Shown here one piece after another: positions 523 through 20,797 of a DNA stretch of 23,662 nt. The stretch lies in assembly GCA_023132135.1 (NCBI GenBank), contig JAGLYR010000307.1:1-23662 (forward strand), read 5' to 3'. This DNA comes from Candidatus Eiseniibacteriota bacterium (lineage in GTDB: Bacteria; Arandabacterota; Arandabacteria; JAGLYR01). Below the pieces are notes generated by a model. That model was not told the DNA's origin and searched no databases. It worked only from the letters and a program-made list of their open reading frames with translations. The translations under genes and the position numbers were made by a program. Position 1 is the first letter of the stretch. The number at the start of each line of letters is the position of its first letter.

Positions 523-665
523 AAAGTTCGTTTTCTGCCGGAACTTCTTGCCGCCTTCGGGGGTATACTTAATATGGAGGCTGTTATGAATACGGGGTAA
601 CCAGGACTACGGGTCGAAGGTTCTCCAATTGAACATTCGAAACCTTCAAAAGTGAGGAGGCAAGG

Positions 666-827: not shown

Positions 828-875
828 GTAAAGACAAGGGTGGTTTGGTTCCACCCGGACAAATCAGTCAGATTC

Positions 876-918
876 AGGTCGGGATGGCGAGTTGACTCAC
901 ATAAAGCTGTCCCGACCT
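876..918. other. Perfect 9-bp inverted repeat upstream of htrA
   Basis: AGGTCGGGA at 876-884 is exactly repeated in inverse as TCCCGACCT at 910-918, with a 25-base loop. It lies in the 120-base gap between the YHS gene and the htrA start. No T-run follows the right arm, so it is a poor intrinsic terminator; an operator or an mRNA leader hairpin is more likely. A second, weaker hairpin (GGGTGG 838-843 with CCACCC 851-856) lies just downstream of the YHS stop codon. Confidence 0.4.
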
Positions 919-947
919 CTTAATATCGTAAGTGTGAGGGTTTAAAG

Positions 948-2189
<1,242 letters not shown>

Positions 2190-2190
2190 G

Positions 2191-5825: not shown

Positions 5826-6655
5826 GCAGAGACGGGCTGGACAGGCGGGTTGCAGTCCTGGGGTTTCCCGGTTCGAACTGCGAGGTGGAGACGCAGCGAG
5901 CTCTGCTGGCTGCCGGTGTGAAAGCGGATATTGTCCGGTGGAACGAGAGCCCCGACCGGCTGAGTCACTATGGTGGCTTTGTCCTGCCCGGGGGATTCAG
6001 CTACCAGGATCGCGTCCGGGCCGGCGCGCTGGCGGCCAAGGAGACAATCGTCGAGGCGGTGACGGCGGGCGCCGAAGAGGGCAAGCCCATCCTGGGTATC
6101 TGCAACGGGTGCCAGATTCTTGTGGAAGCAGGGCTGGTGCCGGGAATTCGGGAGGGGGACGTGGAGATGGCCTTGGCTCCCAACCACCGCCCCGGAGGGG
6201 CAGGGTACTACTGCCGCTGGGTGTTTCTGAAGCACGTGGCTTCTCCCGGCCGCTGCCTCCTGACGCGCCTGCTGGGCCAGAGCGAAGTTCTTCCAATTCC
6301 CATTGCCCATGCCGAGGGACGGTTTGTCACATCATCGAACGACCTGGTGGCAACCCTGAGGGAAAACGACCAGGTGGTTCTGCGGTACTGCGATGCTCAT
6401 GGACGGGTGAGTTCGAGCCCGGATGTCAATCCCAACGGTTCAGTGGATGATATTGCCGGGTTGTGCAATCCCCGGGGGAATGTCCTGGCTCTGATGCCCC
6501 ACCCCGAACGGGCTGCCTGGCTCCGGCAGGTACCCGAAGGGATGGAGACGTTGTGGGCGACAGACAGGTCCGGGGCCGCGGGGCGCGGGCAGGATCTGGA
6601 GAACGAAGGGCCGGGCCGCCGGTTGTTTGAAGCCTTTGGGTGGGAGCAGGGATGA
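5822..6655 (+). CDS. purQ: Phosphoribosylformylglycinamidine synthase, PurQ glutaminase subunit
   Basis: Class I glutamine amidotransferase that supplies ammonia to PurL. The N-terminus (RRVAVLGFPGSNCEVET) and the oxyanion strand GGFVLPGGFSYQDRVRAGA are typical of PurQ. The nucleophile is Cys94 in GICNGCQIL, and the His227/Glu229 pair lies in MPHPER. At 277 residues it is longer than the usual 220-235, partly from an insertion after the nucleophile (a PNHRPGGAGYYCRW stretch) and partly from a C-terminal segment rich in Gly and Arg before the last helix. The ATG overlaps the purL stop as ATGA, and its own stop overlaps the next gene the same way. Confidence 0.96.
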   Translation: MSRDGLDRRVAVLGFPGSNCEVETQRALLAAGVKADIVRWNESPDRLSHYGGFVLPGGFSYQDRVRAGALAAKETIVEAVTAGAEEGKPILGICNGCQILVEAGLVPGIREGDVEMALAPNHRPGGAGYYCRWVFLKHVASPGRCLLTRLLGQSEVLPIPIAHAEGRFVTSSNDLVATLRENDQVVLRYCDAHGRVSSSPDVNPNGSVDDIAGLCNPRGNVLALMPHPERAAWLRQVPEGMETLWATDRSGAAGRGQDLENEGPGRRLFEAFGWEQG

Positions 6656-7167
6656 GCACGAAGATTGCACTCGTAGTCCGGTTGAAGGTTCCCGACACGA
6701 CGGCGCTGAGTGCCGAGGATGTCCTAAGGCGGAAGATGGGATACGGAGACCGTCTGGGCCGGCTCCGGCGGGAGGATTGGTGGCTCTTCGAAGTGGACAC
6801 CGGCGATGGGGCCCGCGCGCGGGCGAGGGTGGGAGAATGGGCCCGCCGATGCACGTCGCTGGTGAATCCCAACAAACATCGTGCCAGGGTTGAGCTCCCC
6901 CGGGAGAAGTCCGGATCCGGTTCAGGAGTACGAGTCCTGGTCCGAGACAGGGACGACGTCCGTGCCCGGTCGATGCTGGCATTCCTGAGGTACAGCCTGG
7001 GCGCCTCCGATCTGCTTTCTCTCCGGTCGGGGACGTTGTGGACAGTTGAGCCGGGAGCCGGTGAAAAGGATCCCCGATCGCTGGCCGAGGGAATTGCGGC
7101 AACCCGGTCTCGCCGGCGGGGACTGTTGGCTAATCCCCACGCACAGACCTTTGAGATCTACGGGTAG
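6652..7167 (+). CDS. purS: Tandem-domain PurS (FGAM synthase small subunit, duplicated)
   Basis: A 171-residue protein, twice the roughly 80 residues of ordinary PurS, which bridges PurL and PurQ in the FGAM synthase complex. Residues 4-83 align by eye with PurS: KIALVVRLKVPD, then RRKMGYGD, WWLFEVD, an ARARARV helix and SLVNPNKHRARVE. A second copy spans about 89-171: VRVLVRDRDDVRARSM, LRYSLGASD, LWTVEPG, and the very PurS-like end LLANPHAQTFEIYG. The halves are strongly diverged from each other. PurS normally dimerises, so this chain could be a covalent pseudo-dimer. The start ATG 6652 overlaps the purQ stop (ATGA). Position between purQ and purF supports the call. The second half is less certain except at its conserved C-terminus. 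Confidence 0.8.
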   Translation: MSTKIALVVRLKVPDTTALSAEDVLRRKMGYGDRLGRLRREDWWLFEVDTGDGARARARVGEWARRCTSLVNPNKHRARVELPREKSGSGSGVRVLVRDRDDVRARSMLAFLRYSLGASDLLSLRSGTLWTVEPGAGEKDPRSLAEGIAATRSRRRGLLANPHAQTFEIYG

Positions 7168-7179
7168 AAGAGCAGTGCC

Positions 7180-7221
7180 ATGATGAATGACGCCGCACCG
7201 GCCAGGAGAGGAATATCGTGA
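7180..7221 (+). CDS. Mini-ORF 1 of the purF leader array
   Basis: A 13-codon frame, MMNDAAPARRGIS, opens at ATG 7180 (or 7183), 12 bases after the purS stop, and ends at TGA 7219-7221. That stop overlaps the GTG of mini-ORF 2 in a GTGA junction. A weak purine-rich GAAGAG lies upstream. No known function; translation is not proven. Confidence 0.4.
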   Translation: MMNDAAPARRGIS

Positions 7222-7259
7222 CGGATGCCGCCGCACCGGTCAGGAGAGAAATATCGTGA
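7218..7259 (+). CDS. Mini-ORF 2 of the purF leader array
   Basis: A 13-codon frame from GTG 7218, VTDAAAPVRREIS, preceded by AGGAGAG at a good distance. Its TGA (7257-7259) overlaps the GTG of mini-ORF 3 by the four bases GTGA. The peptide is nearly identical to that of mini-ORF 3. It looks able to be translated because the ribosome binding site and start match those used by purF itself, but it may be only a by-product of a duplicated start region. Confidence 0.45.
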   Translation: MTDAAAPVRREIS

Positions 7260-7297
7260 CGGATGCCGCCACACCGGTCAGGAGAGAGATATCGTGA
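7256..7297 (+). CDS. Mini-ORF 3 of the purF leader array
   Basis: A 13-codon frame from GTG 7256, VTDAATPVRREIS, with AGGAGAG upstream. Its TGA (7295-7297) overlaps the purF GTG start at 7294 in a GTGA junction, so a ribosome ending here could restart directly on purF. It differs from mini-ORF 2 by one amino acid (Ala to Thr) and one silent change. Confidence 0.45.
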   Translation: MTDAATPVRREIS

Positions 7298-8739
7298 CGG
7301 ATGACATCATGCCCGCCGAGGACAAGTTCAGGGAGGCGTGTGGGCTGTTCGGTGTAGTGGGCACTCCGTCAGCAGCCGAGTGGTGCTACCTCGGTCTCTA
7401 CGCGCTTCAGCACCGTGGTCAGGAGAGCGCCGGCATCGTGGTCTCGGATGGGGAATCCATTGTTGAGCACAGGGGGATGGGTCTGGTCTACGACGTGTTC
7501 GACGAGGAGTCTCTCGGGAGTCTGGCCGGCCACATGGCAATCGGGCACAACAGATATTCCACCATGGGCCTGTCCCGAACGGTCAACATCCAGCCTTTCT
7601 CCATGCATTCCTGGCGGGGCCTCGTGTGTCTGGCCCACAACGGCAACCTGGTCAACGCGTCCCGGATCCGGAGGCGCCTGGAGAGCGAAGGATCGATCTT
7701 CCAGACCGGAACCGATTCCGAGGTGATTGTCCATCTTCTGGCCCGGTCCCGTACTTCGTGTTTCGAGGATGCGCTGGGAGAAGCGCTGGGGGAGCTGGAG
7801 GGAGCCTACTCCCTGCTCCTGATGACCAGGGACCGGCTGTACGCGGTTCGGGATCCCTGGGGATTCCGGCCCCTCTGCATGGGGCGGGCGGGCAGCGCAA
7901 TTGTGGTGGCGTCGGAGTCGTGCGCGCTGGATGTGGTGGGGGCAAGCTTCGAGAGAGAACTGGATCCGGGTGAGCTGGTTGTCGTGTCCGAAGAGGATGG
8001 AGTGGTCTCCATGCCGCTGCTGCCCGCGCAGCAGCGGGCCCAGTGCATCTTCGAGCTCATCTACTTCGCCCGTCCGGACTCGGTCGTGTTTGGCAAGCCC
8101 GTGAGCCGGTTTCGCCGGGAGTTGGGCCGGGCACTTGCAGCGGAACAGAAGGTGGATGCCGATGTGGTGATCTCGGTCCCCGATTCCAGCAACGAGATCG
8201 CCTTGGGATATGCCCAGGGATCCGGGCTCCCGATGGAGTTCGGCCTGATTCGGAATCACTACGTCGGCAGGACCTTCATCTACCCGATCCAGAGTATGCG
8301 GGCGGTGCGGGCCCGGATAAAGTACAATGCCGTGGGGGAAGTTCTCGGCGGGCGCCGGGTTGTTGTTGTGGACGACTCCATTGTGCGCGGCACCACGATG
8401 CGGCGGTTGGTCTCACTCATCCGCAATGGCGGGGCCCGGGAAGTCCATCTGCGGGTCGGTTCCCCTCCCATCTGCAACCCGTGTTGGTTCGGGATCGACA
8501 CGCCCAGTTCCGAGGAGCTGATTGCGTCCGGCAAGTCGCCGGAAGAGATCGCCTCCTTCCTGGGTGTGGACAGTCTCGGTTACCTGTCGCGTGAAGCGCT
8601 GCTGGATATTGGAGGACGGGAAAACGGATTCTGCTCCGCATGTTTCGGCGGGGCGTATCCCATGGAGATGGAGGGACAGAGAGACAAGGCTGTTCTGGAA
8701 CCTTCGCCCCGCTCGCGGGGTGGTCGGCGGCCGCAATGA
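7294..8739 (+). CDS. purF: Amidophosphoribosyltransferase
   Basis: First committed enzyme of purine synthesis: PRPP plus glutamine gives phosphoribosylamine. The GTG 7294 start (481 residues) is behind AGGAGAG and is the only repeat-derived GTG in this frame. It gives a 15-residue propeptide ending before Cys16, the N-terminal nucleophile of the class II glutaminase domain (ACGLFGVVG), as in the Bacillus-type enzyme, which cleaves its propeptide. The PRPP-binding loop VVVVDDSIVRGTT lies around residues 356-368. Cys251, Cys397, Cys447 and Cys450 match in spacing the four 4Fe-4S cluster ligands of the Bacillus subtilis enzyme, so this is the oxygen-sensitive Fe-S type. It is the last gene of the purine run, and its expression may depend on the leader array just upstream. 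Confidence 0.96.
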   Translation: MTDDIMPAEDKFREACGLFGVVGTPSAAEWCYLGLYALQHRGQESAGIVVSDGESIVEHRGMGLVYDVFDEESLGSLAGHMAIGHNRYSTMGLSRTVNIQPFSMHSWRGLVCLAHNGNLVNASRIRRRLESEGSIFQTGTDSEVIVHLLARSRTSCFEDALGEALGELEGAYSLLLMTRDRLYAVRDPWGFRPLCMGRAGSAIVVASESCALDVVGASFERELDPGELVVVSEEDGVVSMPLLPAQQRAQCIFELIYFARPDSVVFGKPVSRFRRELGRALAAEQKVDADVVISVPDSSNEIALGYAQGSGLPMEFGLIRNHYVGRTFIYPIQSMRAVRARIKYNAVGEVLGGRRVVVVDDSIVRGTTMRRLVSLIRNGGAREVHLRVGSPPICNPCWFGIDTPSSEELIASGKSPEEIASFLGVDSLGYLSREALLDIGGRENGFCSACFGGAYPMEMEGQRDKAVLEPSPRSRGGRRPQ

Positions 8740-8792
8740 GTTCGCACGGATGATGTGGAGTTGTTCAAAGGTGGGGGTGGGGAGGTGCGATA

Positions 8793-9488
8793 GTGCGTGC
8801 CGGGAGGGAATGGATCACAGGGATCCCGGAGGAGGATCGGCCGCGTGAGCGGGTCCTCGCCGGTCACCTGGAGGAAAAGACGACGCCTGAGATTCTGGCC
8901 GCTGTCCTGGGAAGAGGAACGGGTGGGAAGAACGTTGTGGCGCTGGCCCATGAGTTGCTGGCTCGCTTTGGGAGTTTGAGAGAGCTGGCCCGGTCCGAGG
9001 CCGGTGCGCTGATGGAAGTGCAGGGGATTGGTCCGGCTCAGGCTGCCCGGCTGGTGGCGGCGTGTGAGCTGGGACGCCGGATGGTGCGCTCTCCAGGTGA
9101 GCAGCGCGCTGAGATCCGGTCGCCGGAGGATGTGGCGCGGTTACTCATGGAGTCAATGCGGAGCCTCGACCGCGAGCAGTTCCGGGTGGTTCTCCTGAAC
9201 AGCAAGAACCGTGTTCTCGGAATCGAGACGGTGGCTGTGGGTACGTTGAACGCTTCGCTGGTCCATCCACGCGAGGTGCTAAAGCCGGGAATCCGGAAGA
9301 GCGCGGCGGCTGTGATCCTGGTACACAACCATCCGACGGGGATTGCAACCGCGTCGCAGGAGGATGTGCGGCTGACTCGCAGGATTGTGCAAGCGGGCCG
9401 GATCGTTGGAATCGAGATCCTGGATCACGTGATCATTGGGGATGGAACCTACGAATCCCTGCGGGAAGCTGGAAAAGTGGATTTCTAG
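8793..9488 (+). CDS. radC: RadC-family JAB-domain protein
   Basis: A 231-residue member of the RadC (UPF0758) family. The N-terminal part (about 10-100) has the [13 protein letters not shown] start and a helix-hairpin-helix with [11 protein letters not shown]; the C-terminal JAB/MPN metallo-domain (about 105-231) carries Glu145, His178, His180, Ser188 and Asp191 in the pattern [14 protein letters not shown]. These are the expected zinc ligands and catalytic residues, so the active site is intact. The old link to DNA repair is disputed and the cellular role is unsettled. The GTG start 8793 follows GGGAGG by about eight bases. It sits 53 bases after purF and 11 before mreB; radC next to mreB is a common bacterial arrangement. 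Confidence 0.92.
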
Positions 9489-9499
9489 GAGGGGAAGAC

Positions 9500-10546
9500 A
9501 TGGCCATGGGATCTCTATCGGGTTGGGTCTCCAACGACATTGCAATAGACCTTGGCACTGCAAACACGTTGGTCTATGTCAAAGGTCGCGGGATTGTCCT
9601 CAACGAGCCTTCCGTGGTTGCTGTGGAGCAAGCCTCAGGCAAAGTTGTGGCGGTGGGAAGGGAAGCGAAGGCAATGCTGGGCCGGACCCCGGGAGAGATC
9701 AAGGCCATCCGCCCCCTGAAGGATGGCGTGATCGCGGATTTTGAGATCACGGAGGTCATGCTGAGGGAATTCATCGAGCGTGTCCAGAAGAACCGGTTTC
9801 TGGCCCGGTTAGTGCGGCCCCGGATCATCATCTGCGTACCCTCGGGGATCACGGAGGTTGAGAAGAGGGCGGTCCGGGATTCGGCGGAACATGCCGGAGC
9901 AAGGGAAGTGTTCCTGGTGGCCGAGCCCATAGCCGCCGGCATTGGGGTGGGCTTGCCGGTGGACAAGCCTACCGGGAATATGGTGATCGATATTGGCGGG
10001 GGAACCACGGAGATTGCCGTGATCGCCCTTTCGGGAATCGTGTGCGAGACCTCCATCCGTGTGGGAGGGGACGAGATGGACGAGAGTATCGTCCAGCACG
10101 TGAAGAAGAATCACAATCTCCTGATCGGAGACCAGACGGCGGAACTGATCAAGATGAAAATCGGGTCCGGTTTTGCGACGGATGAAGAGCAGCAGATGGA
10201 GCTGAAGGGCCGGGACCTGATCGATGGAATTCCCAAAACTCTCCTTGTGACGTCCGCGGAGATTCGGGAATCTCTACAGGAACCCATCGGGGCCATTGTG
10301 GAGGCCGTGAAGGTGTCCCTGGAGCGTACGCCGCCCGAGCTGGCCGCGGACATCGTGGACCGCGGGATTGTCATGACGGGAGGGGGATCTCTCCTGAAGG
10401 GATTGGACCAGCTTCTTCGCGAGGAAACGGCTCTTCCCATCAACGTAGTGGAAGATCCCCTGAGCTGCGTGGTTCTGGGAACCGGCAAGATCCTCGACAA
10501 CCTGGAGTATTACGACAAGGTAATCATGCGAGGCAAAAACGACTAG
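9500..10546 (+). CDS. mreB: Rod shape-determining actin homologue MreB
   Basis: A 348-residue actin-like ATPase that forms membrane-bound filaments and steers lateral cell-wall synthesis. The first phosphate loop ([28 protein letters not shown]), the second ([17 protein letters not shown]) and the adenosine motif ([17 protein letters not shown]) are present and in order. A strong AGGAGGGGAAG site precedes the ATG at 9500. The short N-terminal MAMGSLSGW stretch could act as a membrane-binding element. It begins the mreB-mreC-mreD-mrdA-rodA set, which predicts a rod-shaped or elongated cell. mreC starts two bases after its stop. Confidence 0.98.
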
Positions 10547-10548
10547 AT

Positions 10549-11427
10549 ATGCCTGTGTTCCTCTGGCGCTTTCGGCAGATTATCGTACTTGGACTGTGTA
10601 TCGTGAGCTCCGTCGCTCTCATGGGCATGGGTGAGTCCAAACGTGTGGAATCCGCCCGGAGAGTGCGATCCGTCGTGCTGTACCCGATGGAGAAGTTGTT
10701 CCGGTTACATGACCGCTACGCCGACCTGGAGAGCGAGAACCGGGATCTCCGTCTCATGGTAACGCGGCTGGTTCAGGAAACCAGTCGGCTGGAGGACCTG
10801 GGGGCTGAGAATGAGAGGCTGCGGCGGATGCTCGGGTTCAAGGAGCGGGGGTATCGGGACATGGTACCGGCCGAAGTAATCGGCTGGGACGAAAGCACCG
10901 TCGGTCTCAACCTGGAGATTGATCAGGGCTCCCGTTCGGGAATCCAGCCAAGCCATCCCGTGGTATCCATGGACGGGCTCGTGGGCGAGGTAATCGAAGC
11001 CCATCCCCGCTCCTCGTGGGTGTTGACCCTCCGCTCTCCCGATTGCGCGGTGAGCGTTCTGGACCAGCGCTCCCGGGTGAGAGGAATAGTCCGGTGGCGC
11101 TACCCGGGGGGACTGACCCTGCAGCTGGTGGCCAAGGGATCGGATGTGAGAGAGGGCGACATGATTCTCACCTCGGGTCTTGGGGGAGTGTTCCCCAAGG
11201 GGTTGCGTGTGGGGACAGTGAAGTCTGTGGAGGAGCGACTCGGCGACCTGTTTCAAATGGTGACCCTGCACCCGGTGGTGGACTTCGACCGCCTGGAGGA
11301 AGTTGCGGTTCTCACCGCCGGGCTCGAGCGGGAATCGGATCCCCTTCTCCGGGCGGCTGAGAGCTTCCGGCGTGGAGCGGGGGACAGCGCTGCCGTCGGT
11401 GGGGCGTCGGTTGGATCCGGTGAGTAG
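10549..11427 (+). CDS. mreC: Cell shape protein MreC
   Basis: A 292-residue bitopic membrane protein that links MreB to the PBP2-RodA synthase. It has one N-terminal transmembrane segment (about 8-28), a coiled coil (about 55-100, DRYADLESENRDLRLMV then LEDLGAENERLRRML), and the beta-rich periplasmic MreC domain (about 105-265, with GWDESTVGLNLEIDQGSRSGI and SGLGGVFPKGLRVGTV). The C-terminal tail is rich in Gly, Ala and Ser and probably disordered. The 54-base gap before mreD contains an exact 8-bp direct repeat (GCCCCGCG at 11437 and 11449) of no obvious role. Confidence 0.95.
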   Translation: MPVFLWRFRQIIVLGLCIVSSVALMGMGESKRVESARRVRSVVLYPMEKLFRLHDRYADLESENRDLRLMVTRLVQETSRLEDLGAENERLRRMLGFKERGYRDMVPAEVIGWDESTVGLNLEIDQGSRSGIQPSHPVVSMDGLVGEVIEAHPRSSWVLTLRSPDCAVSVLDQRSRVRGIVRWRYPGGLTLQLVAKGSDVREGDMILTSGLGGVFPKGLRVGTVKSVEERLGDLFQMVTLHPVVDFDRLEEVAVLTAGLERESDPLLRAAESFRRGAGDSAAVGGASVGSGE

Positions 11428-11481
11428 AATAGTGGGGCCCCGCGCGAAGCCCCGCGTCGAGTTTGACAGGAAGGACAGAGC

Positions 11482-12006
11482 GTGAGCTCCTGGACAAGGA
11501 CGGCCGGCGGATTTCTGAAGATGCTGGTTGTGATGCTGCTGGTTGTGCTGCTGCACCTGACCGTGATTCGTCGAATGCGGATCTTCGGGATTGGACCGGA
11601 TCTCTCTATTCTGCTGGTCGTATACATTGGTCTCTGGAGGGGTGCCATTGCGGGAACGGCAGGGGGGTTCCTGATGGGTATCCTCCAGGGAGCATCTTGC
11701 CCCGTTCATTTCGGGAGTCATGCTCTGGCGAAATCCATCGTGGGGTTCGGCGCCGGGAAAATCGGACCTCATGTTGTCCGTGAATCCCTTGCCACCCAGG
11801 CTGCCATCATCATCGGGGCCCAGGTAGCCCATGACTTGATCCTTCTCCCCATTGTCCTGGGAGACGCAGGTTTTTTGCCCCTGGTTCTTGTGACCCGCAC
11901 GATCCCGGGCGCCGTCTACTCAGCTCTGTTGGGATGCCTCATCTTCCGTTTTGTTCTCAGACCGCTCGGTCTGAACCTGAGATCTCATGGCACGGCGATA
12001 CTCTGA
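11482..12006 (+). CDS. mreD: Rod shape-determining membrane protein MreD
   Basis: A 174-residue, very hydrophobic protein with about five predicted membrane segments, matching MreD in length and position. Start GTG 11482 follows AGGAAGGA. Recognisable features are the MLLVVLLHLTVIRR first segment, the GIGPDLSILLVVYIGLWRG stretch and the GFLMGILQGA motif before the third segment. MreD is the least conserved elongasome member, so the call rests on topology, those motifs and the setting between mreC and mrdA. Its last 20 bases overlap the mrdA start, which suggests coupled translation. Confidence 0.9.
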   Translation: MSSWTRTAGGFLKMLVVMLLVVLLHLTVIRRMRIFGIGPDLSILLVVYIGLWRGAIAGTAGGFLMGILQGASCPVHFGSHALAKSIVGFGAGKIGPHVVRESLATQAAIIIGAQVAHDLILLPIVLGDAGFLPLVLVTRTIPGAVYSALLGCLIFRFVLRPLGLNLRSHGTAIL

Positions 12007-13777
12007 ACAGGAACAGTACACCAAGTCGTTTCGAGCCAAGGTTGTCCTTGTCCTGGTGGCTCTTCTGCTTGCCATGCTGGCTGCCAAAGCATTCGAGCTG
12101 CAAGTGGTGCACGGCGCCAGGTACAAGCAGATGGCCGAGGAGAACCAGATCAAGATCCGGCGTCACCGCGCGCCCCGCGGGCTCATCCTGGACAGGAACG
12201 GGTGGGTTCTGGCGGACAACCGTCCGTCTTACGATCTGGCCGTGATTTTCTCGGAAACGCCGCAGGACAGTGCACACGTCCGGAGACTTGCCGCGTTGGC
12301 GGGGGTGGATACATCCGTGATTGCCGGGGGATTCGCCAAGGCAAAACGCCATCCCCACGAGCCGGTGAAGATTGTCCGTGACATTCCCTTCGAAGCGGTG
12401 GCTCGGATTGAGGAGCAGCGCAATTGGCTCCCCGGCACTTCGATCGAGGCCGATCCGATTCGTTCCTATTCCAGCGGCGCGATGGCATGCCATCTTCTGG
12501 GATACCAGGGCGAGGTTTCCGACAATGAACTGCGCAGGCTTCGGTCCCAGGGCTATCGACCGGGAGACTACCTGGGGCGCACAGGTGTTGAAGAAATCTG
12601 GGAGGCGGCCCTGAGGGGGACGGACGGCGCCATCTTCATCCGGGTCGACGCGCACGGCAGGGAAGTAGGCCCTGTGAGGGGGAAGAAGGCCGTGCAGCCG
12701 AGACCGGGGAACAACGTGTTTCTGACTCTGGATCTTGGCCTCCAGGCGGCGGCGGAAGAGGCTTTTCAGGGGGTGGAACGTGGGGCTTGCGTGGTGCTGG
12801 ATCCTGGAACCGGCGAGATCCTGGCCATGGTCAGTCGGCCTTCCTTCGATCCCAACGCTTTTGCCGGAGGGATCAACCCCGAAATGTGGCGTGTCCTTCT
12901 GGAGGACCCGGCACTGCCCCTGCTCAGTCGGGCGGTCAGCGCGTCCTATCCGCCGGGCTCGACGTTTAAGATCATCACTTCTACATGCGCTCTCCAGTTG
13001 GACTGCTTGGGGGATGTGCCCGAGTTCCGTCCGTGCTTTGGCGGGTACCGCTTCGGCAATCGATGGTTTGGGTGTTGGAAGGAGGGGGGGCACGGCCGAC
13101 TGGATCTTCGCAGCGCGTTCATCCAGTCCTGTGACACCTTCTTCTACCAGGTGGGTGAGAGACTCACGATCGACGAGCTGAGCGATTGCATGTTCCGGTT
13201 CGGTTTTGGTAAACGAACAGGGATTGACCTGCCGAGCGAGGCAACAGGACTCGTGCCGACCCGGAAGTGGTACGACGAAAAATATGGTGTGGGAGGTTGG
13301 ACCCAGGGCCTGATGCTCAACCTCTCGATTGGCCAGGGAGAAATCCTGGCCACGCCACTCCAGATGGCAGCGGCAGTGGCGGTGATCGGCAATGGCGGGG
13401 TGTTCTGGACGCCGCATCTGTTTCTGCGTCTGGAAACGCCCGAGGGAAAGTGCCTGCGTGAACCCAGGGGCCGAATGCGCCGGGTCAATATTCGGGATGA
13501 GATCCTGGTGTTCATGCAAGAGGCAATGCTGGGGGTTGTCGAACACGAGAGGGGAACCGGACGAGCGGCGCGGGTGGCCGGCGTTCGAGTGGGTGGAAAG
13601 ACCGGGACAGCGCAGAATCCTCATGGTGAGGATCATGCCTTGTTTGTGGCCTTGGCGCCCGTAGATGAAGCGAGGGTGGCTCTTGCCGTTGTCGTTGAGA
13701 ACGGCGGCCATGGCGGGGCTGTTGCGGCGCCCATTGCGGGCAAGATCATGTCGGCCTTCTTTGCGATGGACCAATGA
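11987..13777 (+). CDS. mrdA: Penicillin-binding protein 2 (elongasome transpeptidase)
   Basis: A 596-residue class B PBP that crosslinks peptidoglycan during elongation. A cytoplasmic tail and one transmembrane segment (about 17-37) are followed by the pedestal domain (RAPRGLILDRNGWVLADN) and the transpeptidase domain. Active-site motifs are intact: Ser325-T-F-Lys328 in YPPGSTFKI, Ser381-C-Asp383 (SxD, as normal for PBP2) and Lys538-T-G. Several cysteines near the active site (Cys340, Cys350, Cys363) lie in the loop where PBP2 proteins often have a CPG-like cysteine pair. Start ATG 11987 overlaps mreD by 20 bases, and the stop overlaps rodA (ATGA). A 605-codon antisense open frame over this gene is a shadow. 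Confidence 0.97.
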   Translation: MARRYSEQEQYTKSFRAKVVLVLVALLLAMLAAKAFELQVVHGARYKQMAEENQIKIRRHRAPRGLILDRNGWVLADNRPSYDLAVIFSETPQDSAHVRRLAALAGVDTSVIAGGFAKAKRHPHEPVKIVRDIPFEAVARIEEQRNWLPGTSIEADPIRSYSSGAMACHLLGYQGEVSDNELRRLRSQGYRPGDYLGRTGVEEIWEAALRGTDGAIFIRVDAHGREVGPVRGKKAVQPRPGNNVFLTLDLGLQAAAEEAFQGVERGACVVLDPGTGEILAMVSRPSFDPNAFAGGINPEMWRVLLEDPALPLLSRAVSASYPPGSTFKIITSTCALQLDCLGDVPEFRPCFGGYRFGNRWFGCWKEGGHGRLDLRSAFIQSCDTFFYQVGERLTIDELSDCMFRFGFGKRTGIDLPSEATGLVPTRKWYDEKYGVGGWTQGLMLNLSIGQGEILATPLQMAAAVAVIGNGGVFWTPHLFLRLETPEGKCLREPRGRMRRVNIRDEILVFMQEAMLGVVEHERGTGRAARVAGVRVGGKTGTAQNPHGEDHALFVALAPVDEARVALAVVVENGGHGGAVAAPIAGKIMSAFFAMDQ

Positions 13778-14973
13778 GACCTCGGGATTTCGACTGGCTT
13801 CTTCTTGTGAGCGTTCTGCTTCTGTCCGCGGTTGGCTTGGCGCTCATCTACAGCAGTACCTCGGGTGGCGACGGCTCCGTGTTGGTGAGGCGTCAGATCC
13901 TGTGGGTCGGCATGGGACTTTCGGCATTGCTTGTTGCCCAGCTCATCCCGTTCAAGACCTACGATGTCTTGGCCTACTTCGCCTACACCGCCGGGATTCT
14001 GGCCTTGGTGTTCGTTCTCCTGGCTCCCGGAGAGGGAGGGCCGCACCGGTGGATTTCGAGCGGACCCTTCCGGTTCCAGCCTTCTGAGATAGCCAAGCTG
14101 TTGGTGGTGTTTGCTCTCGCCCGGTACCTGGCGGGCAAGAAGAAACCCGGCGGATTCCGTTCGGTCCTGGTTCCTTTTGCCATTGTGGCGGTTCCGATGA
14201 TCCTGGTTGCGAGGCAGCCGGATCTGGGAACCGCCATGGTTTTCGGGGCAATACTGTTCCCGCTGCTGTACTGGGCGGGGATGGAGCCCATCTACGTGGC
14301 TCTGCTGGTGACTCCATTGATCAGCATGCTCTGCGCCACAGCGCTGGTGTCGTGGATCGTGTTCGTTCTGGTGATCATGGCGATTCTCTACTTCGGGCCT
14401 CTTCGGGCGGGGGAGGCAGCCTTTGTGTTGCTCCTCAATTTCGCGATCGGAATTGTCACGCCGTTTCTATGGGGGCGCCTGGAGCCGTATCAGAAGAACC
14501 GGATCTTGAGCTATGTGAATCCCGAGAAGGACCCTCTCGGTTCAGGATATCAGATCCTCCAGTCCAAGGTGGCTATCGGATCGGGTGGGGGGTTGGGGAA
14601 AGGATTCCTCGAAGGAACACAGAAGGGGCTTGAGTTCCTCCCGGCCCGGCATACGGATTTCATCTTCTCCGTGGCCGGGGAGGAGTTCGGCTTTGTCGGT
14701 GTTCTTGTGATCCTGGGTCTGTTCCTGATGGTGATCTGGCGAGGGGTCCGGATTGCGCAGGACGCCAAGGACAAGTTCGCGAGCCTGACGGCCATGGGCA
14801 TTACGTCTGTCTTGACCTTTCATGTGTTTGTGAACATAGGGATGACAATCGGCCTGCTGCCCATCACGGGGTTGCCGCTCCCACTGCTGAGCTACGGGGG
14901 CTCCTCGTGTCTGATGTTCATGGTGGCGGTGGGGATTCTGCTTGCCATCGGGCGAAGCCGGAGAGCCGGCTAG
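13774..14973 (+). CDS. rodA: Peptidoglycan glycosyltransferase RodA (SEDS family)
   Basis: A 399-residue polytopic membrane protein of the SEDS family that polymerises lipid II into glycan strands together with PBP2. About ten membrane segments can be seen. Family motifs include GPHRWISSGPFRFQPSEIAKL, the GSGYQILQSKVAIGSGG loop, HTDFIFSVAGEEFGFVG and the final GLLPITGLPLPLLSYGGSS. The ATG overlaps the mrdA stop, so the partner pair is translationally coupled. RodA is preferred over FtsW because of its adjacency to mreBCD and mrdA. The gene ends 33 bases before lgt. Confidence 0.96.
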   Translation: MRPRDFDWLLLVSVLLLSAVGLALIYSSTSGGDGSVLVRRQILWVGMGLSALLVAQLIPFKTYDVLAYFAYTAGILALVFVLLAPGEGGPHRWISSGPFRFQPSEIAKLLVVFALARYLAGKKKPGGFRSVLVPFAIVAVPMILVARQPDLGTAMVFGAILFPLLYWAGMEPIYVALLVTPLISMLCATALVSWIVFVLVIMAILYFGPLRAGEAAFVLLLNFAIGIVTPFLWGRLEPYQKNRILSYVNPEKDPLGSGYQILQSKVAIGSGGGLGKGFLEGTQKGLEFLPARHTDFIFSVAGEEFGFVGVLVILGLFLMVIWRGVRIAQDAKDKFASLTAMGITSVLTFHVFVNIGMTIGLLPITGLPLPLLSYGGSSCLMFMVAVGILLAIGRSRRAG

Positions 14974-15006
14974 TTCGACAACCCGGAGATAAGGAGCCGC
15001 GACTGG

Positions 15007-15816
15007 ATGCACAGGATACTGGTGGAACTGGGGCCGCTGAGGATCTACAGCTACGGGTTCATGTTGATGGTGGCGTTTGCCGTTGGGATTTTCCTGGCTG
15101 TGACGCGGGGACGGCGCAGGGGGATCCTGCCGGAGTTCGTGATGGATCTCAGCACGCTCATTGTGTTCGCTGCCATCGTGGGCTCGCGGATGGTCTACGT
15201 GCTGTTCCACGGGGATGGCTACTGGCCCCGCTGGTGGGACGTGTTCAAGGTCTGGGAGGGTGGGCTCACTGTGTACGGAGGAGTCCTGCTGGCCGTGGTG
15301 GTGGCCTATGCATTTTGCCGGTCCCGGGGTGTTCCTTTTCTGAAGATTGCGGATACCGTCGCGCCGTCTCTTGCTCTGGGCGTGGGAATCACGCGGATCG
15401 GCTGTTTCCTGAATGGATGCTGCTATGGAAGCGCGTGCGAACTCCCGTGGGCTGTTCGGTTCCCCCAGGGCTCTCTTGCGGAGTACGAGATGGGGCGGAT
15501 CGGCATTCACCCTTCGCAGCTGTACGCATCGTTCGTTGGTTTCGCTGTCTTCCTCGTTCTTTTTCAGGTGGACCGCAGACCCCGGCGGGAAGGGTTCGTC
15601 TTCTGGCTCTTCGTTTTCCTCTTCAGCGCCGGGACCTTCTTCACCGATTTCACGCGGCATTGGGAGTCGAGCGCTATCGTCCTTCGCTCCGGAGCCGTTG
15701 TCTTGTCGGTCAACCAACTTCTGGAACTGGGTCTGGTGGTTCTGGCGGTGATCATGCTTTGCGGTCGGGTGAGTGGGAAGGGGGGGGGAATGGAGGAGGG
15801 CCACGGGACGGCTTGA
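15007..15816 (+). CDS. lgt: Prolipoprotein diacylglyceryl transferase
   Basis: A 269-residue inner-membrane enzyme that moves diacylglycerol from phosphatidylglycerol to the lipobox cysteine of prolipoproteins. About seven membrane segments. The Lgt signature appears as TRIGCFLNGCCYG (Arg130, Asn136), a cysteine-rich variant seen in many non-enteric bacteria; other conserved pieces are YSYGFMLMVAF, WEGGLTVYGGVL and HPSQLYASF. The usual His of the GGxxxHGG region is Tyr here (TVYGG), which also occurs in the family. An AAGGAG site lies about 11 bases before the ATG. The C-terminal tail (GKGGGMEEGHGTA) is low in complexity and overlaps comF by 44 bases. Confidence 0.95.
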   Translation: MHRILVELGPLRIYSYGFMLMVAFAVGIFLAVTRGRRRGILPEFVMDLSTLIVFAAIVGSRMVYVLFHGDGYWPRWWDVFKVWEGGLTVYGGVLLAVVVAYAFCRSRGVPFLKIADTVAPSLALGVGITRIGCFLNGCCYGSACELPWAVRFPQGSLAEYEMGRIGIHPSQLYASFVGFAVFLVLFQVDRRPRREGFVFWLFVFLFSAGTFFTDFTRHWESSAIVLRSGAVVLSVNQLLELGLVVLAVIMLCGRVSGKGGGMEEGHGTA

Positions 15817-16552
15817 GTCCACCGCGAACCGCTTTCTTGGAATCCTGTTTCCGGAATTCTGCCGCGGGTGCGGCCGGGTCCTGGCTATCAGAGATTGTCT
15901 CCTGTGTGATTCATGCTGGTTGAAGCTGTCGTGGGTTTCCGACGCAAGGACACTCGCCGAGCTCACGAGCGCCTGGGGCCGTGCGAACGGTGTCGGGTTC
16001 CGTCGATGCCCGTGGCCCGGGCGGGTTGCGGAGATCCGCACACGGGCCGTGGCGTATATGGAACCGGTCATGGCCGCAGCGATTCACAATCTCAAATACC
16101 GGGGCCGGAAGAGGGTGGCGAATCGACTGGGGCGCCTGATGGCCCGGGTGGCACTGTCCGACCCCGCGTTTCGCGGGTGCGAAGGGCTGGTGCCTGTGCC
16201 GCTCAGGCCGGAGAAGCTGCGGGAACGCGGCTACAATCCCTCGGCTCTGTTGGCAGGGTCGGTGTCCGAGGCAACAGGGATCCCGGTTGTGCATGGGGCG
16301 CTGGTGAAGATCCGGCCAACCCCGTCCCAGACGGAGATCCGGCCGCGAGATAGAACGGTTAACCCGCGTGGCAGCTTCAGGGTGGTCAATCCGGAAGGAA
16401 TTGCGGGAATACGTCTGATTCTGGTGGATGACGTGGCTACCTCCGGGTCGACCCTGGCGGCTGCGGCCGGGGCCCTCCTGGAGGGGGAAGCGCGGGAGAT
16501 CCGGGTGCTCACAGCGGCCAGAACTCCCATGGGTAGCCTGGGTTATTCATGA
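15773..16552 (+). CDS. comF: ComF family protein (zinc-ribbon plus phosphoribosyltransferase fold)
   Basis: A 259-residue ComF-like protein. Five cysteines at 30, 33, 42, 45 and 48 form the N-terminal zinc-binding motif (CRGCG..CLLCDSC). The C-terminal half is a type I phosphoribosyltransferase fold with VPVPLRPEKLRERGYNPS and the PRPP loop LILVDDVATSGSTL (about 215-228). ComF proteins support DNA uptake or recombination in some bacteria; the substrate is unknown. The only usable start in this frame is GTG 15773, deep inside the end of lgt, which gives a 44-base overlap and a weak ribosome binding site, so translation is probably coupled to lgt. It ends the housekeeping run; a 256-base gap follows. 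Confidence 0.88.
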   Translation: MGRGGEWRRATGRLESTANRFLGILFPEFCRGCGRVLAIRDCLLCDSCWLKLSWVSDARTLAELTSAWGRANGVGFRRCPWPGRVAEIRTRAVAYMEPVMAAAIHNLKYRGRKRVANRLGRLMARVALSDPAFRGCEGLVPVPLRPEKLRERGYNPSALLAGSVSEATGIPVVHGALVKIRPTPSQTEIRPRDRTVNPRGSFRVVNPEGIAGIRLILVDDVATSGSTLAAAAGALLEGEAREIRVLTAARTPMGSLGYS

Positions 16553-16808: not shown

Positions 16809-16937
16809 ATGGACGAGAAGAAAACGAGAGTTGAGAAGAAGCCGTACGAGAAGCCGCGGGTGTCTTCAAGCGAGGCCTTCCGGGTCGAAGCCGCGTTGTG
16901 TACATTGGGGGGGGCGTGTGGCACGACCCTGAGCTAG
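16809..16937 (+). CDS. 42-residue RiPP precursor-like peptide
   Basis: A 42-residue peptide from ATG 16809, with a GGGGGGAGGG ribosome binding site about ten bases upstream. The N-terminal part is charged (MDEKKTRVEKKP) and leads to Tyr13-Glu-Lys-Pro16-Arg-Val18. YxxPxV matches the YxxPxL leader motif that PqqD-like (B1/RRE) proteins recognise in lasso-peptide precursors. After SSSEAFRVEAAL comes a cysteine-containing tail, CTLGGACGTTLS, with Cys31, Cys37, a Gly-Gly pair at 34-35 and a C-terminal Ser42. It lies directly before peptidase, kinase, PqqD-like and radical SAM genes, which fits a modified-peptide precursor. A gene prediction program could miss it because of its size. The next gene starts 14 bases after its stop. 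The start, frame and ribosome binding site are seen; the role is inferred. Confidence 0.72.
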   Translation: MDEKKTRVEKKPYEKPRVSSSEAFRVEAALCTLGGACGTTLS

Positions 16938-16951
16938 TGTGTGGTCTGTGC

Positions 16952-17485
16952 ATGGAGGCCGATGAAGGTGGGTTCTCGGGAGGGATTGCCGGAGAGCTCG
17001 TGTCTGAAGAGTTCTTGCATTGTGAGAAGCAAGATGTAGACGCCAGGCGTCGGGCGATGCTCGATGCCTGGTGTGATTTACTGGAGAGTGCACAGAAAGG
17101 CCGGTTGATTGTGCATGGCCGAAGCATGATGCCGGCCCTTTGTCCCGGATGGAGTCTGATTGTCCGGCCTGTGTCTGTGGAGCGTCTCCGGTCGGGAGAC
17201 GTGGTGGTCTTTCTGTTGGGCTCCAGGCTTATTGCCCACCGGATTGCCGCGGTCCTCGGCTGGGGTCGGCACAGAAGCCTGTTTGAGAAAGGGGACGCCG
17301 GGGGGAAAGCGCGTCGGTTGGACCGAACGCAGGTGGTGGGGCGCGTGGAGCAAGTACTGGACGACAGCGGTGAGCCGGTGAGCGCTGAATCCTGGCGGTG
17401 GAAACGAGTTCGGGCAACCGTTGTCTCCTGGGTCGTCCTTGCTCGCCTGTTCGCAAGGAAGGTGCGCAGGGTCGCGTGGGAGTGA
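16952..17485 (+). CDS. S24/S26-type signal peptidase-like protein (Ser/His type)
   Basis: A 177-residue protein from ATG 16952; the frame is open further upstream but overlaps the precursor gene. The core resembles S24/S26 peptidases: VHGRSMMPALCPGWSLIV (nucleophile Ser58), LRSGDVVVFLLG, then LIAHRI with His96 and FEKGDAG with Asp115. A His in this place instead of the bacterial catalytic Lys is typical of the archaeal/ER-type (S26B) signal peptidases. Similar small S24-like genes often occur in polysaccharide and peptide-modification loci. It has no N-terminal membrane anchor; only one modestly hydrophobic stretch lies near the C-terminus (about 155-167). It could remove the leader of the upstream peptide. 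The next gene begins four bases after its stop. Confidence 0.75.
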   Translation: MEADEGGFSGGIAGELVSEEFLHCEKQDVDARRRAMLDAWCDLLESAQKGRLIVHGRSMMPALCPGWSLIVRPVSVERLRSGDVVVFLLGSRLIAHRIAAVLGWGRHRSLFEKGDAGGKARRLDRTQVVGRVEQVLDDSGEPVSAESWRWKRVRATVVSWVVLARLFARKVRRVAWE

Positions 17486-17489
17486 GTGA

Positions 17490-18335
17490 GTGGTAGCTAA
17501 TGGCCGTGACGGGGAGAGAGATCCGTTGAAGGAAGAACACGGGGTGGTCCTGTCAATAGCGGGGCAGGGGTGTCGGATAGAGTGTCCGGACAACCCGGCG
17601 GCGATCCGGGCTCTCAAGTCTGATTTGCCCCAGTTCGTTTCGGACATGGAACCCGCACTCACCGTGTCCATCCGGTTCGATCGCGGTATGCAGGATGCGG
17701 CGACGCCCGGTTGGAAGGCCCTGAAGATGGAGCGGACCCGGGATGGTTTTCTTGCTCACGGGCCCTCTCACTGGATTCTGGTCCTGCCCGAGTTGAACAG
17801 GATCGAGGCAAGGATCCCCCGGTACTTCCAGGTGGGTACGGTCCTTAGGATCGGGATATCGACGATTCTTCCCCTGAGCGGACGTGGGTTTCTCAGCCAC
17901 GCGGCGGCGGTAGCGAATCGGGAAGGCGCGTATCTCTTTCCGGGACTGCCCGAGGCCGGCAAGAGCACCGTGGTGGCCAACTCGCCGGGAAGGCGGGCTC
18001 TCACGGAGGAGACGGCTGTGATCACGAAAGATAACGGCCGGTTTCAGGTCTTCGGATTTCCCCTCTGGGCGCGGTTCGACATCCTTTCCATGACGGACCA
18101 ACCCACTCCTCTGGCAGGGATGTTTCTCTTGAAGAAAGGGACACCGCGGATCAATCCCGTAAGCCGGTCGGAAGCGCTTGGCTATCTGCTGCAAAATATC
18201 TGCTTCCCCCTGGTTGATCCACAGGCCAGGGAGAGGGTGATTGAGGTGGCGTCCGAGTTCGTCCGGGAGGTCCCGTGTGCCGAACTCGTCTTTGGAAAAA
18301 ACCCGGAGTTCTGGAGGTGCATCGAGCGTGGCTGA
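17490..18335 (+). CDS. HprK-related kinase
   Basis: A 281-residue protein (GTG 17490; TTG 17526 with GGGGAGAGAG upstream is an equally good start). The C-terminal half has the HPr-kinase-type P-loop fold: SHAAAVANREGAYLFPG, then Walker A GLPEAGKST (residues 152-160) and ALTEETAVI where HprK relatives have L-S-D-D. True HprK regulates carbon catabolite control, but this protein lacks the HprK N-terminal domain and sits in a peptide-modification-like operon. HprK homologues in some lasso-peptide clusters phosphorylate the C-terminal serine of the precursor, and the peptide encoded upstream ends in serine. The GTGGCTGA overlap with the next gene implies coupling. The fold is confident; the substrate is a hypothesis. 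Confidence 0.8.
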   Translation: MVANGRDGERDPLKEEHGVVLSIAGQGCRIECPDNPAAIRALKSDLPQFVSDMEPALTVSIRFDRGMQDAATPGWKALKMERTRDGFLAHGPSHWILVLPELNRIEARIPRYFQVGTVLRIGISTILPLSGRGFLSHAAAVANREGAYLFPGLPEAGKSTVVANSPGRRALTEETAVITKDNGRFQVFGFPLWARFDILSMTDQPTPLAGMFLLKKGTPRINPVSRSEALGYLLQNICFPLVDPQARERVIEVASEFVREVPCAELVFGKNPEFWRCIERG

Positions 18336-18606
18336 AGTCATGGAGCAGGTCATGGTCCACAACGCGGATGCCGCTGCGAGGGTTATCGACGGCGAAGCGT
18401 TCATTATCACGCCCCACGACAACCAGATTCACAATTTGACCGGGGTTGCCGCGAGGGTCTGGGAACTGGGGGGCGAAGGGTTGACGGTCCAGCGGATTGT
18501 CGAGAGAATTGTTGAAGAGTATGATGTGAAACCCGAGGTGGCGAAACGGGATGTCATTTCCTTTGTCCGGGATCTTGCGCAGCGCAAGATCGTCACTCTC
18601 AAGTGA
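18328..18606 (+). CDS. PqqD-like peptide-binding protein (RRE)
   Basis: A 92-residue PqqD-family protein. GTG 18328 has GGAGG ten bases upstream, and the eight-base overlap with the kinase gene fits coupled translation; the longer open frame from 18241 lies within the kinase gene and is not needed. The PqqD pattern is clear: GEAFIITPHDNQIHNLTGVAARVWELGG, then LTVQRIVERIVEEYDV and DVISFVRDLAQRKIV. PqqD-type domains (RiPP recognition elements) bind the leader of precursor peptides and present them to maturation enzymes, commonly a radical SAM/SPASM protein, which is exactly the next gene. The likely ligand is the YxxPxV region of the peptide at 16809. Confidence 0.88.
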   Translation: MAEVMEQVMVHNADAAARVIDGEAFIITPHDNQIHNLTGVAARVWELGGEGLTVQRIVERIVEEYDVKPEVAKRDVISFVRDLAQRKIVTLK

Positions 18607-19715
18607 CGCGATCGCGGGGATGGGTATTGGAAACGAGTAGCCGCAGCCAGGATGCCCTGGATTCACTGATCAAGCAGGCGAGCCTGGCTCTGGTGCCGGC
18701 GGTGGTGAAATTGGATCTCACCTATGCCTGCAATCAGAAGTGCGTTCACTGCTGCGTGGTCCCGGAGAGACGCGAGGACTTGAGCCTCGAGGAGATCCGG
18801 GTTCTCTTTGCTGAGATCGCGGACAAGGGCTGTCTGTACCTCTCTCTCAGCGGTGGCGAGATTTTCCTCCGCAAGGACCTGCCGGATATTCTCGAAGAAG
18901 CTCAGCGGTGTGGATTCTCCCTCAGGCTCATGACCAACGGATCGCTGATTCCACCGGAAATGATTCCCCGGATGCGGAAATACCGGGTCGGAGAAGTAGA
19001 CGTGAGTCTGTACGGCGACACCGCCGAGGTCCATGAGTCGGTGACCCGTGTCGCGGGATCGTTTGAGAAAACCGTGGCGAGCATCCGCAGAATGCGAGAG
19101 GCGGGGATCCGCATCAAGATTGGTCTCATTATCCTCAAGCAGAATATCCATCGGTTCCGGCAGATGGTGGATCTCGCCGAGAGTCTGGGAACCACATGGA
19201 ACCTGGATGGATCCATTCTCCGGCGGTTTGACGGGTCGGAGGCTCCTCTGGCGTTCCAGGTTCCGGTGTCTGAACTGGCGGATGTCGTTGAGTACCGGGA
19301 GAGGCGGATGCCGGATCTCAAGCACATGAAGGAGGCGTGGAACAGGGAGAAGTGGCTGGAAGGCGTTCCCTGTGGGGCCGGAAGGGCCATGTGCACGATC
19401 TCGCCCTATGGCGATGTCTTCCCCTGTTCCGTGATGCCGATGTTGGCGGGCAACATCCGCGAGCAATCCTTTGCAGAAATCTGGGATCACTCGGAGGTTC
19501 TCAAGCGGGTTCGGGCCATCCGGCGCCGGGACCTGGAGACGTGCGCAACCTGCGAACTTGCCCCCTTCTGTGTACTATGCCCCGGCCGCTCAGTGCTCGA
19601 CAACGGCAGCCTCACAGAGCCGAGCCTGTTCCGTTGCTCCGAGACGGCCATCCATCGCGATGTCTACGAGAAGATCTACCTCGAGGGGGGATCTTGCGAC
19701 GAACCCCGGGAGTAG
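18603..19715 (+). CDS. Radical SAM/SPASM enzyme, probable peptide maturase
   Basis: A 370-residue radical SAM protein starting at GTG 18603, joined to the PqqD-like gene by a GTGA overlap. The 4Fe-4S motif is Cys43-x3-Cys47-x2-Cys50 (ACNQKCVHC), and the SAM-binding SGGE lies at 83-86. The C-terminal SPASM domain has Cys257, Cys264, Cys275 (SPYGDVFPC), Cys314, Cys317, Cys323, Cys326 (CATCELAPFCVLC) and Cys345, enough ligands for two auxiliary clusters. Such enzymes form thioether, C-C or epimerised products in PQQ, mycofactocin, sactipeptide and related pathways. With a PqqD-like partner and a cysteine-bearing small peptide in the same operon, peptide modification is the best guess; the exact reaction cannot be read from sequence. 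Confidence 0.88.
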   Translation: MTRSRGWVLETSSRSQDALDSLIKQASLALVPAVVKLDLTYACNQKCVHCCVVPERREDLSLEEIRVLFAEIADKGCLYLSLSGGEIFLRKDLPDILEEAQRCGFSLRLMTNGSLIPPEMIPRMRKYRVGEVDVSLYGDTAEVHESVTRVAGSFEKTVASIRRMREAGIRIKIGLIILKQNIHRFRQMVDLAESLGTTWNLDGSILRRFDGSEAPLAFQVPVSELADVVEYRERRMPDLKHMKEAWNREKWLEGVPCGAGRAMCTISPYGDVFPCSVMPMLAGNIREQSFAEIWDHSEVLKRVRAIRRRDLETCATCELAPFCVLCPGRSVLDNGSLTEPSLFRCSETAIHRDVYEKIYLEGGSCDEPRE

Positions 19716-20797
19716 ACGACCTCCAGCGCTGGCGGCGAATCGGATCCGTTCCTGAACCGGAAAGAATGCTGGCAGTGCGCCTGTCCAGGGCTGCGGCAGA
19801 GGGTTCCCCGGAAGGCACCCTTCGGCGTGTCACGGGGGGATCGGTGGACTGGTCGCGAGTCGTGGAAGCGGCTCGGGCTCTCAGGACTGTTCCTCTCCTT
19901 GATGCCACCCTGGTTCGTCACAGCGATCGACTGGAAATCCCCGGCAAAGAGCGGAAAACACTCTGGATGGAAGCGGATGCGTGGCGGCGATGGAATCGGC
20001 GTCTCGCAGCGGAAGGGGAAAGGGTCGTGGCGGCCCTGGAGCGAGAGGGCTACCGCGTAGTGCCGATCAAGGGCTTCGACTATGCCCGGAGACTCTACCC
20101 GGATGTGGGCCTTCGGCCCATGGTCGATATCGATCTTCTGCTTCCCGAGCGCGAGTTGGGGCCGGCTTGTGAATTCCTCAAGGGAACGTTGGAATACCGG
20201 GAGGAAGACAGCCCGGCCGAGCGGCGTCACGGTCGGACTTACCACAAGCGGATTCTGTTCCGATGGGAGGGGGATGAATCACGATGCCTGGACATGCACG
20301 CCGTCTTCTACCACCGGGAGCTCTACCCGGTGGACTATGAGGAGTTGTGGCGGCGGATCGGCGACGGTCGCGCCGGGCTGGAGCCGGAGGATTGTCTGCT
20401 GTTGAGCTGTCTGATCCTTGCGAAGGACCGCTACCAGACAGACCTGAGAGACATGCTGGATATCCACCTGATGATCCGATCCTGCAATCTCGACTGGTCC
20501 GTGGTCCTGGAGCGGGCGCGCGAGTGGGAAGTGTCAGTGGCCCTGTTCTTTTCCCTTCTGGTGGTGCGCAATATTCTGGGCAGCGCGGTTCCGGCGCGGG
20601 TGCTGGAGAAATGCCGCCCGGGTTGGCTGAGGCGCTCCTGGCTGGAGTTGTTCCTTGCGACGGACCGTATTCCCGTGTACCGGTTCGATCATGGGTCCTT
20701 CCTTCCGAAAATGTTTATCCGGCTTCCCTTGGCGGATTCCCCCGCGGGGTGGCTGCGGTTCCTGAAAGCGCGTATCATGCATCGGGTAATCTCCTGA
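19694..20797 (+). CDS. NTP_transf_5-type nucleotidyltransferase family protein
   Basis: A 367-residue protein whose best start is TTG 19694, behind GAGGGGGG, overlapping the radical SAM gene by 22 bases; ATG 19766 is an alternative, and the open frame upstream is a shadow inside the radical SAM gene. The hallmark of this nucleotidyltransferase family is VVPIKGFDYARRLYPDVGLRPMVDIDLLLP, with Lys126, Gly127, Arg141 and the Asp145-x-Asp147 metal pair (residues 123-151). The remainder is mostly helical and includes a DMLDIHLMIR segment. Members occur in surface-polysaccharide loci and beside HprK-like kinase genes in some lasso-peptide clusters, but the substrate is unknown. It ends the operon; the next gene is convergent. 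Confidence 0.8.
   Translation: MRRTPGVDDLQRWRRIGSVPEPERMLAVRLSRAAAEGSPEGTLRRVTGGSVDWSRVVEAARALRTVPLLDATLVRHSDRLEIPGKERKTLWMEADAWRRWNRRLAAEGERVVAALEREGYRVVPIKGFDYARRLYPDVGLRPMVDIDLLLPERELGPACEFLKGTLEYREEDSPAERRHGRTYHKRILFRWEGDESRCLDMHAVFYHRELYPVDYEELWRRIGDGRAGLEPEDCLLLSCLILAKDRYQTDLRDMLDIHLMIRSCNLDWSVVLERAREWEVSVALFFSLLVVRNILGSAVPARVLEKCRPGWLRRSWLELFLATDRIPVYRFDHGSFLPKMFIRLPLADSPAGWLRFLKARIMHRVIS

Follow-up and report, generated by a model that had tools for sequence, protein, structure and literature searches.

We describe an operon for a ribosomally synthesized and post-translationally modified peptide (RiPP) in a contig of Candidatus Eiseniibacteriota bacterium (JAGLYR010000307.1, assembly GCA_023132135.1); the window is the whole stretch of 23,662 nucleotides that was analysed. 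The operon is a real and conserved RiPP operon, and its pathway probably resembles those of the linear polyphosphorylated peptides (LPPs) and the phosphorylated lasso peptides, with a radical S-adenosylmethionine (SAM) enzyme in the place of the lasso cyclase. Six contiguous open reading frames (ORFs), all intact and either overlapping or separated by only a few bases, lie on the plus strand at positions 16809-20797 (coordinates below refer to this strand unless noted). The first encodes a peptide of 42 amino acids. It is followed by genes for an S26B-like protease, an HprK-like kinase and a PqqD-like RiPP recognition element (RRE), then for a radical SAM/SPASM enzyme and, last, for an NTP_transf_5 nucleotidyltransferase-like protein. 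The original prediction had named this set, and profile searches bear out its family calls for the RRE (PF05402, 55 bits at a cut-off of 23), the radical SAM/SPASM enzyme (PF04055, 85 bits; PF13186, 48 bits) and the nucleotidyltransferase (PF14907, 137 bits at a cut-off of 31); those for the protease and kinase come from weak profiles, backed by folds and residues. The small YxxPx(V/L) ORF, whose conservation had been set beforehand as the test of the RiPP reading, is indeed retained at most of the loci that carry this gene set.

Relatives were gathered with the protease as query and, in whole genomes and in the contigs of 84,980 species, with the radical SAM enzyme, and 140 loci were annotated with iterated profiles (for PqqD with a length limit). 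HprK-like and radical SAM genes occur together in 69 distinct loci, the window included. PqqD is present in 63 of these, the protease in 45, NTP_transf_5 in 29 and a small KKxYxKPx[I/V] precursor in 47; protease, PqqD, kinase and radical SAM genes are combined in 39/69, and all five with NTP_transf_5 in 16/69. When the protease is the only query, independently of the radical SAM enzyme, 16 of the 17 matches outside the window lie near an HprK-like gene, a radical SAM gene or both. Two layouts recur, namely peptide-S26-HprK-PqqD-radical SAM, optionally followed by NTP_transf_5, and PqqD-radical SAM-peptide-HprK-S26-NTP_transf_5. The window's order from peptide to radical SAM gene is identical in six Acidobacteriota loci. 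The named phyla are Acidobacteriota (13 loci), Omnitrophota (4), Elusimicrobiota (3), Caldifarciminota, Aminicenantota, Verrucomicrobiota, Nitrospirota, Myxococcota and Planctomycetota, counts that exclude 42 further loci without a phylum name. Within the window's own phylum a kinase relative is found in one of eight genomes, that of the window, and in none of the seven others, which suggests that the operon was acquired horizontally; its base composition is not unusual. Viral contigs contain no relative, and plasmids no kinase relative and only radical SAM proteins of about 25% identity. A separate radical SAM family was seen in Bacteroidota, Spirochaetota, Pseudomonadota and Bacillota (L086, L095, L098, L101, L103, L104, L107, L119, L125), with short precursors, for example MKxYxKPxxxAKNxPTGSYAAGC, and without kinase or protease. 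Loci of this L086/L095 type are probably another RiPP family.

Precursors were listed as small ORFs in which a [YFW]xxPx motif follows Lys/Arg and the tail contains a Cys, and 17 spurious-looking candidates (one a duplicate) were dropped by eye. The 50 HprK-linked precursors share the leader pattern [KR][KR]xYxKPx[IVL], with Tyr in 93% and Pro in 100% of a set that was chosen by this motif, followed by one of two core types, [FY]ETxALxCGK and EEAVLxxCK. At least two Cys are present in 50/50, one Cys being a selection criterion. Ser ends 32 of these precursors (64%) and Thr another 4, against terminal Ser in 23/385 cassette enzymes; with the dropped HprK-linked candidates kept, terminal Ser amounts to 33/59. 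The weighted entropy of the tails is 2.0 bits at position -1 and 3.1-3.8 bits at -2 to -12. Together, this enrichment and the low entropy at the last position show constraint on the terminal hydroxyl, with the remainder of the tail free to vary.

The precursor of the window, MDEKKTRVEKKPYEKPRVSSSEAFRVEAALCTLGGACGTTLS (42 amino acids, 16809..16937), has two Cys, both in the tail. A leader profile of 26 columns was built from 49 HprK-linked precursors, with the window peptide held out, and searched against the 287 window ORFs of at least 25 amino acids. The peptide is the sole significant match (E 7e-9, next ORF 1.7), over 23 positions that extend past the six-residue selection motif; a chance small ORF is ruled out by this result. 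The predicted RRE-binding motif of the leader, YEKPRV (16845..16862), is of the Tyr type and fits the [Y/W]xxPx[L/V/I/F/A] leaders that lasso and LPP RREs bind (PMC13381572). The peptide aligns without gaps with Acidobacteriota precursors of the form [FY]ET|xALxC: its distance from Tyr13 to Cys31 equals that of the first core type, and EAALC follows the predicted cut. In this register, and with the LPP leader being cut after FET (PMC13381572), the putative core is EAALCTLGGACGTTLS (16887..16934). Its last residue, Ser42 (16932..16934), is the predicted phosphorylation site, given the conservation of the last position and the precedent of PadeK/PsmK.

The RRE (18340..18606) matches the crystallised RREs TbiB1 (1.8e-6), PbaB1 (2.7e-5) and LppB (6.3e-5). 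Its D71 and F75 align with D70 and F74 of LppB, of which the former hydrogen-bonds the leader Tyr and the latter sandwiches the Pro (PMC13381572), so that their retention fits a Tyr-type leader. The predicted leader protease (16952..17485 from ATG, or from GTG 16937 overlapping the peptide's stop) is of the S26B-like, SipW/Sec11 type. Although profile matches to the S24/S26 families are weak (best TIGR02228, 1.6e-7), the catalytic Ser57/His95/Asp114 are in place and match S29/H68/D93 of LppS, and the predicted model is closest to SPC-C, the catalytic subunit of the human signal peptidase complex. The gene for the predicted maturase of the radical SAM/SPASM type (18603..19715) shares 4 bp with that for the RRE; the protein retains its cysteines, CNQKCVHC as well as C257, C275, C314, C317, C323 and C326 of the SPASM domain. 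The solved structures nearest to it include PqqE (closest) and SkfB, the best at about 55 bits. The NTP_transf_5 protein carries a DID motif (19694..20797 from TTG; the start is uncertain, with ATG 19766 as the alternative). For the putative peptide kinase (17490..18335) there is no match to Pfam HprK, and NCBIfam TIGR04352 and TIGR04249 match weakly; His137 and the P-loop Lys158 are present. Its model resembles PEPCK and, less well, HprK/P folds, though these matches are partial (the alignment with PEPCK spans several domains at a TM-score of about 0.5, and HprK/P matches have E-values of 0.003 or higher).

We propose the following pathway. The RRE would bind the leader (KKPYEKPRV) and present the peptide to the enzymes. 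Of these, the radical SAM/SPASM protein would modify the Cys-containing core, most likely by cross-linking it through Cys (thioether-type) or in some related way. As the cores contain Cys and SkfB ranks among the nearest solved structures, our first guess is a thioether. The kinase would phosphorylate Ser42, the NTP_transf_5 protein might further decorate the phosphate with a hexose or nucleotidyl group, and the protease, aided by the RRE, would remove the leader near residue 26. RRE binding, phosphorylation and leader removal are modelled on characterised homologues: PadeK phosphorylates a lasso precursor on its C-terminal Ser and the NTP transferase homologue PsmN attaches hexoses to the C-terminal phosphate (PMC9266682), while LppS, a SipW-like Ser/His/Asp protease, cuts off the LPP leader aided by LppB, and LppK phosphorylates (PMC13381572). 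Homology to PadeK, PsmN and LppS leads us to expect that the product has lost its leader and carries a decorated phosphoserine at its C-terminus. The radical SAM chemistry and the NTP_transf_5 role outlined here are guesses, and so would be any biological role. The cassette joins radical SAM/SPASM peptide chemistry with the kinase/nucleotidyltransferase tailoring of phosphorylated lasso peptides and LPPs, which were hitherto known apart, and 50 precursors are now at hand with predicted phosphosite, leader and cleavage region. It is conceivable, though we put it forward tentatively, that these loci form a new RiPP class present in many phyla, combining a radical SAM-made Cys cross-link with a glycosylated or nucleotidylated C-terminal phosphoserine and using an S26B relative as leader protease.

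Several observations weigh against the proposed pathway. The nearest relative found of the radical SAM enzyme is only about 36% identical. No exporter gene lies next to the operon, and no transporter ORF is present within it or downstream as far as the contig end (23662). The window peptide has FRV where the FET cleavage site is expected, and no clear FET site; moreover, the phosphorylated residue in LPPs is core Ser3 and not the C-terminus (PMC13381572). The kinase of the window has Glu-Glu at the site that reads Asp-[Asp/Glu] in most relatives, the first catalytic Asp being present in 75/77 kinases and replaced by Glu, a conservative change, in 2/77 (window and L092), and GFP stands in place of the GTP motif. 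Judging from these residues, its activity may differ from that of its relatives. Finally, Ser is likewise the last residue of 7/20 precursors that have no kinase gene close by, and the association of a Ser ending with kinase presence (Fisher p 0.035, raw) is gone after merging related peptides, while a tree test offers only three independent pairs. The specific tie of the terminal Ser to the kinase is thus weak. Among HprK loci, a Ser/Thr ending is found in 18/19 with NTP_transf_5 versus 18/31 without it (p 0.008), which was not confirmed on the tree.

A kinase gene was sought at the Ser-ending loci L200, L203, L209, L188, L189 and L089, and none was found. Two of these (L203, L209) combine protease, NTP_transf_5, PqqD and radical SAM genes with Ser-ending precursors, and are flanked by UDP-sugar dehydrogenase-like and Wzz-like genes. 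Other loci (L041, L043, L045, L048) have long Cys/Gly-repeat precursors (ACGX-like) without a C-terminal Ser, next to the same protease and mostly a kinase too. At L191, L192 and L193, HprK, PqqD and radical SAM genes accompany near-identical precursors that end in PPAIKG, with neither Ser nor protease; the kinase may act on another residue there.

The closest known system is that of the LPPs, described by Popov et al. in May 2026 as restricted to Bacillota (PMC13381572). Shared with the window are a SipW/SpI-like leader protease, a discrete RRE, an HprK-like kinase, an NTP transferase, a YxxPxV leader, the absence of a lasso cyclase and the proximity of polysaccharide genes. Only LPP clusters have an MsbA-like exporter and phosphorylation of core Ser3, whereas the window cassette, unlike LPPs as published, has a radical SAM/SPASM enzyme, a C-terminal Ser, Cys-containing cores and an occurrence in phyla other than Bacillota; nine other named phyla are thereby added to the range of the LPP toolkit. 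Could this be a plain LPP cluster in which the radical SAM gene is a mere neighbour or acts elsewhere? We consider this unlikely. Protease, RRE, kinase and NTP transferase do make up the LPP core set, but here the genes for the radical SAM enzyme and the RRE overlap, at most of the 69 loci the former adjoins a gene for the RRE or the kinase, and all precursors, though selected for one Cys, contain at least two. LPP leaders moreover follow YxxPxVLxHQxIxFET with Ser at core position 3, from which the cassette precursors differ in spacing and in their C-terminal Ser; in the window peptide YEKPRVSSSEAFRV is followed by EAA, and core position 3 is not Ser. The cassette is therefore without two LPP features, the exporter and the leader/core motif. 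The radical SAM/SPASM enzyme is in turn a new element relative to the LPP toolkit, and the main text of the LPP paper makes no mention of radical SAM, rSAM or SPASM (PMC13381572).

Phosphorylated lasso peptides (paeninodin, pseudomycoidin) share the RRE, HprK-like kinase, nucleotidyltransferase and C-terminal Ser with the operon, but their macrolactam cyclase (Asn-synthetase-like) and B2 transglutaminase-like protease are absent, as had been predicted. No lasso cyclase (PF00733-type) was found in the window and only two partial Asn_synthase matches of about 70 residues in the genome; the B2 protease (PF13471) has no match in either, and among the relatives matches to both families are not near the cassette. 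The cassette is not a lasso cluster. An S26B-like protease stands in for B2 and the radical SAM enzyme for the cyclase, which refines the original reading.

A combination of PqqD, HprK and radical SAM proteins has reportedly been named in silico as SynChlorMet (ScmC/D/E/F). The original description of the operon as possibly undescribed therefore holds only in part, the set without the radical SAM enzyme having also been published, as LPP (PMC13381572); in open-access full text, no paper was found on radical SAM, HprK and SpI protease together. That the operon is itself such an already catalogued cassette (ScmA-F) would agree with the resemblance of the kinase to ScmC, the RRE to ScmD and the radical SAM/SPASM enzyme to ScmE/F (NCBIfam TIGR04248-04251), with its relatives matching ScmC weakly too. 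Scores stay far under the curated cut-offs, at 19/125 bits for ScmC, 31/100 for ScmD and 93-98/400 for ScmE/F, and in the window a single radical SAM enzyme is accompanied by a protease and NTP_transf_5. To our knowledge, the latter two are not defining parts of the SynChlorMet cassette, which counts against this explanation, and we regard it as quite improbable.

Sactipeptide and PQQ maturases (SkfB, AlbA, PqqE) are likewise radical SAM/SPASM enzymes acting on an RRE-bound peptide, for sactipeptides with a Cys-containing core, but without a kinase or nucleotidyltransferase, and the RRE of the window is discrete and lasso-like. PqqE as closest solved structure, a good score against the mycofactocin maturase profile and the PqqD-like partner would agree with a peptide-derived cofactor or signal instead of a phosphorylated natural product; yet the cores vary greatly among loci, unlike cofactor precursors, and kinase and NTP_transf_5 accompany the radical SAM enzyme, making this very improbable. 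Equally remote is a decayed copy of a dying pathway, to which the Glu-Glu and GFP of the kinase and the lack of HprK relatives in the seven other genomes of the phylum might point, given six intact contiguous frames, conserved motifs and the retained catalytic residues of the other enzymes.

As in LPP clusters, the operon abuts a polysaccharide locus. Directly downstream lies a Wzy-like O-antigen ligase/polymerase gene (PF04932; 20950-22437, minus strand), and an exopolysaccharide (EPS) sugar transferase gene (PF02397; 22630-23661, plus strand) runs off the contig end. The proposed association with EPS genes is thus seen here, but in other genomes EPS markers are not enriched around the cassette (8/69 vs 4/66, p 0.37, with few phmmer-seeded markers). 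The genome encodes a second PqqD-like protein (L213, G000:C94:3247-3399; ORF of 113 amino acids) beside an aminopeptidase-like gene; in this 3-kb locus a radical SAM gene was not seen. Upstream of the cassette, positions 1-16552 hold a long housekeeping run, by eye comprising genes for an HtrA-like protease, purB/purL/purQ/purF, radC, mreB/C, mrdA, rodA, lgt and a comF-like gene.

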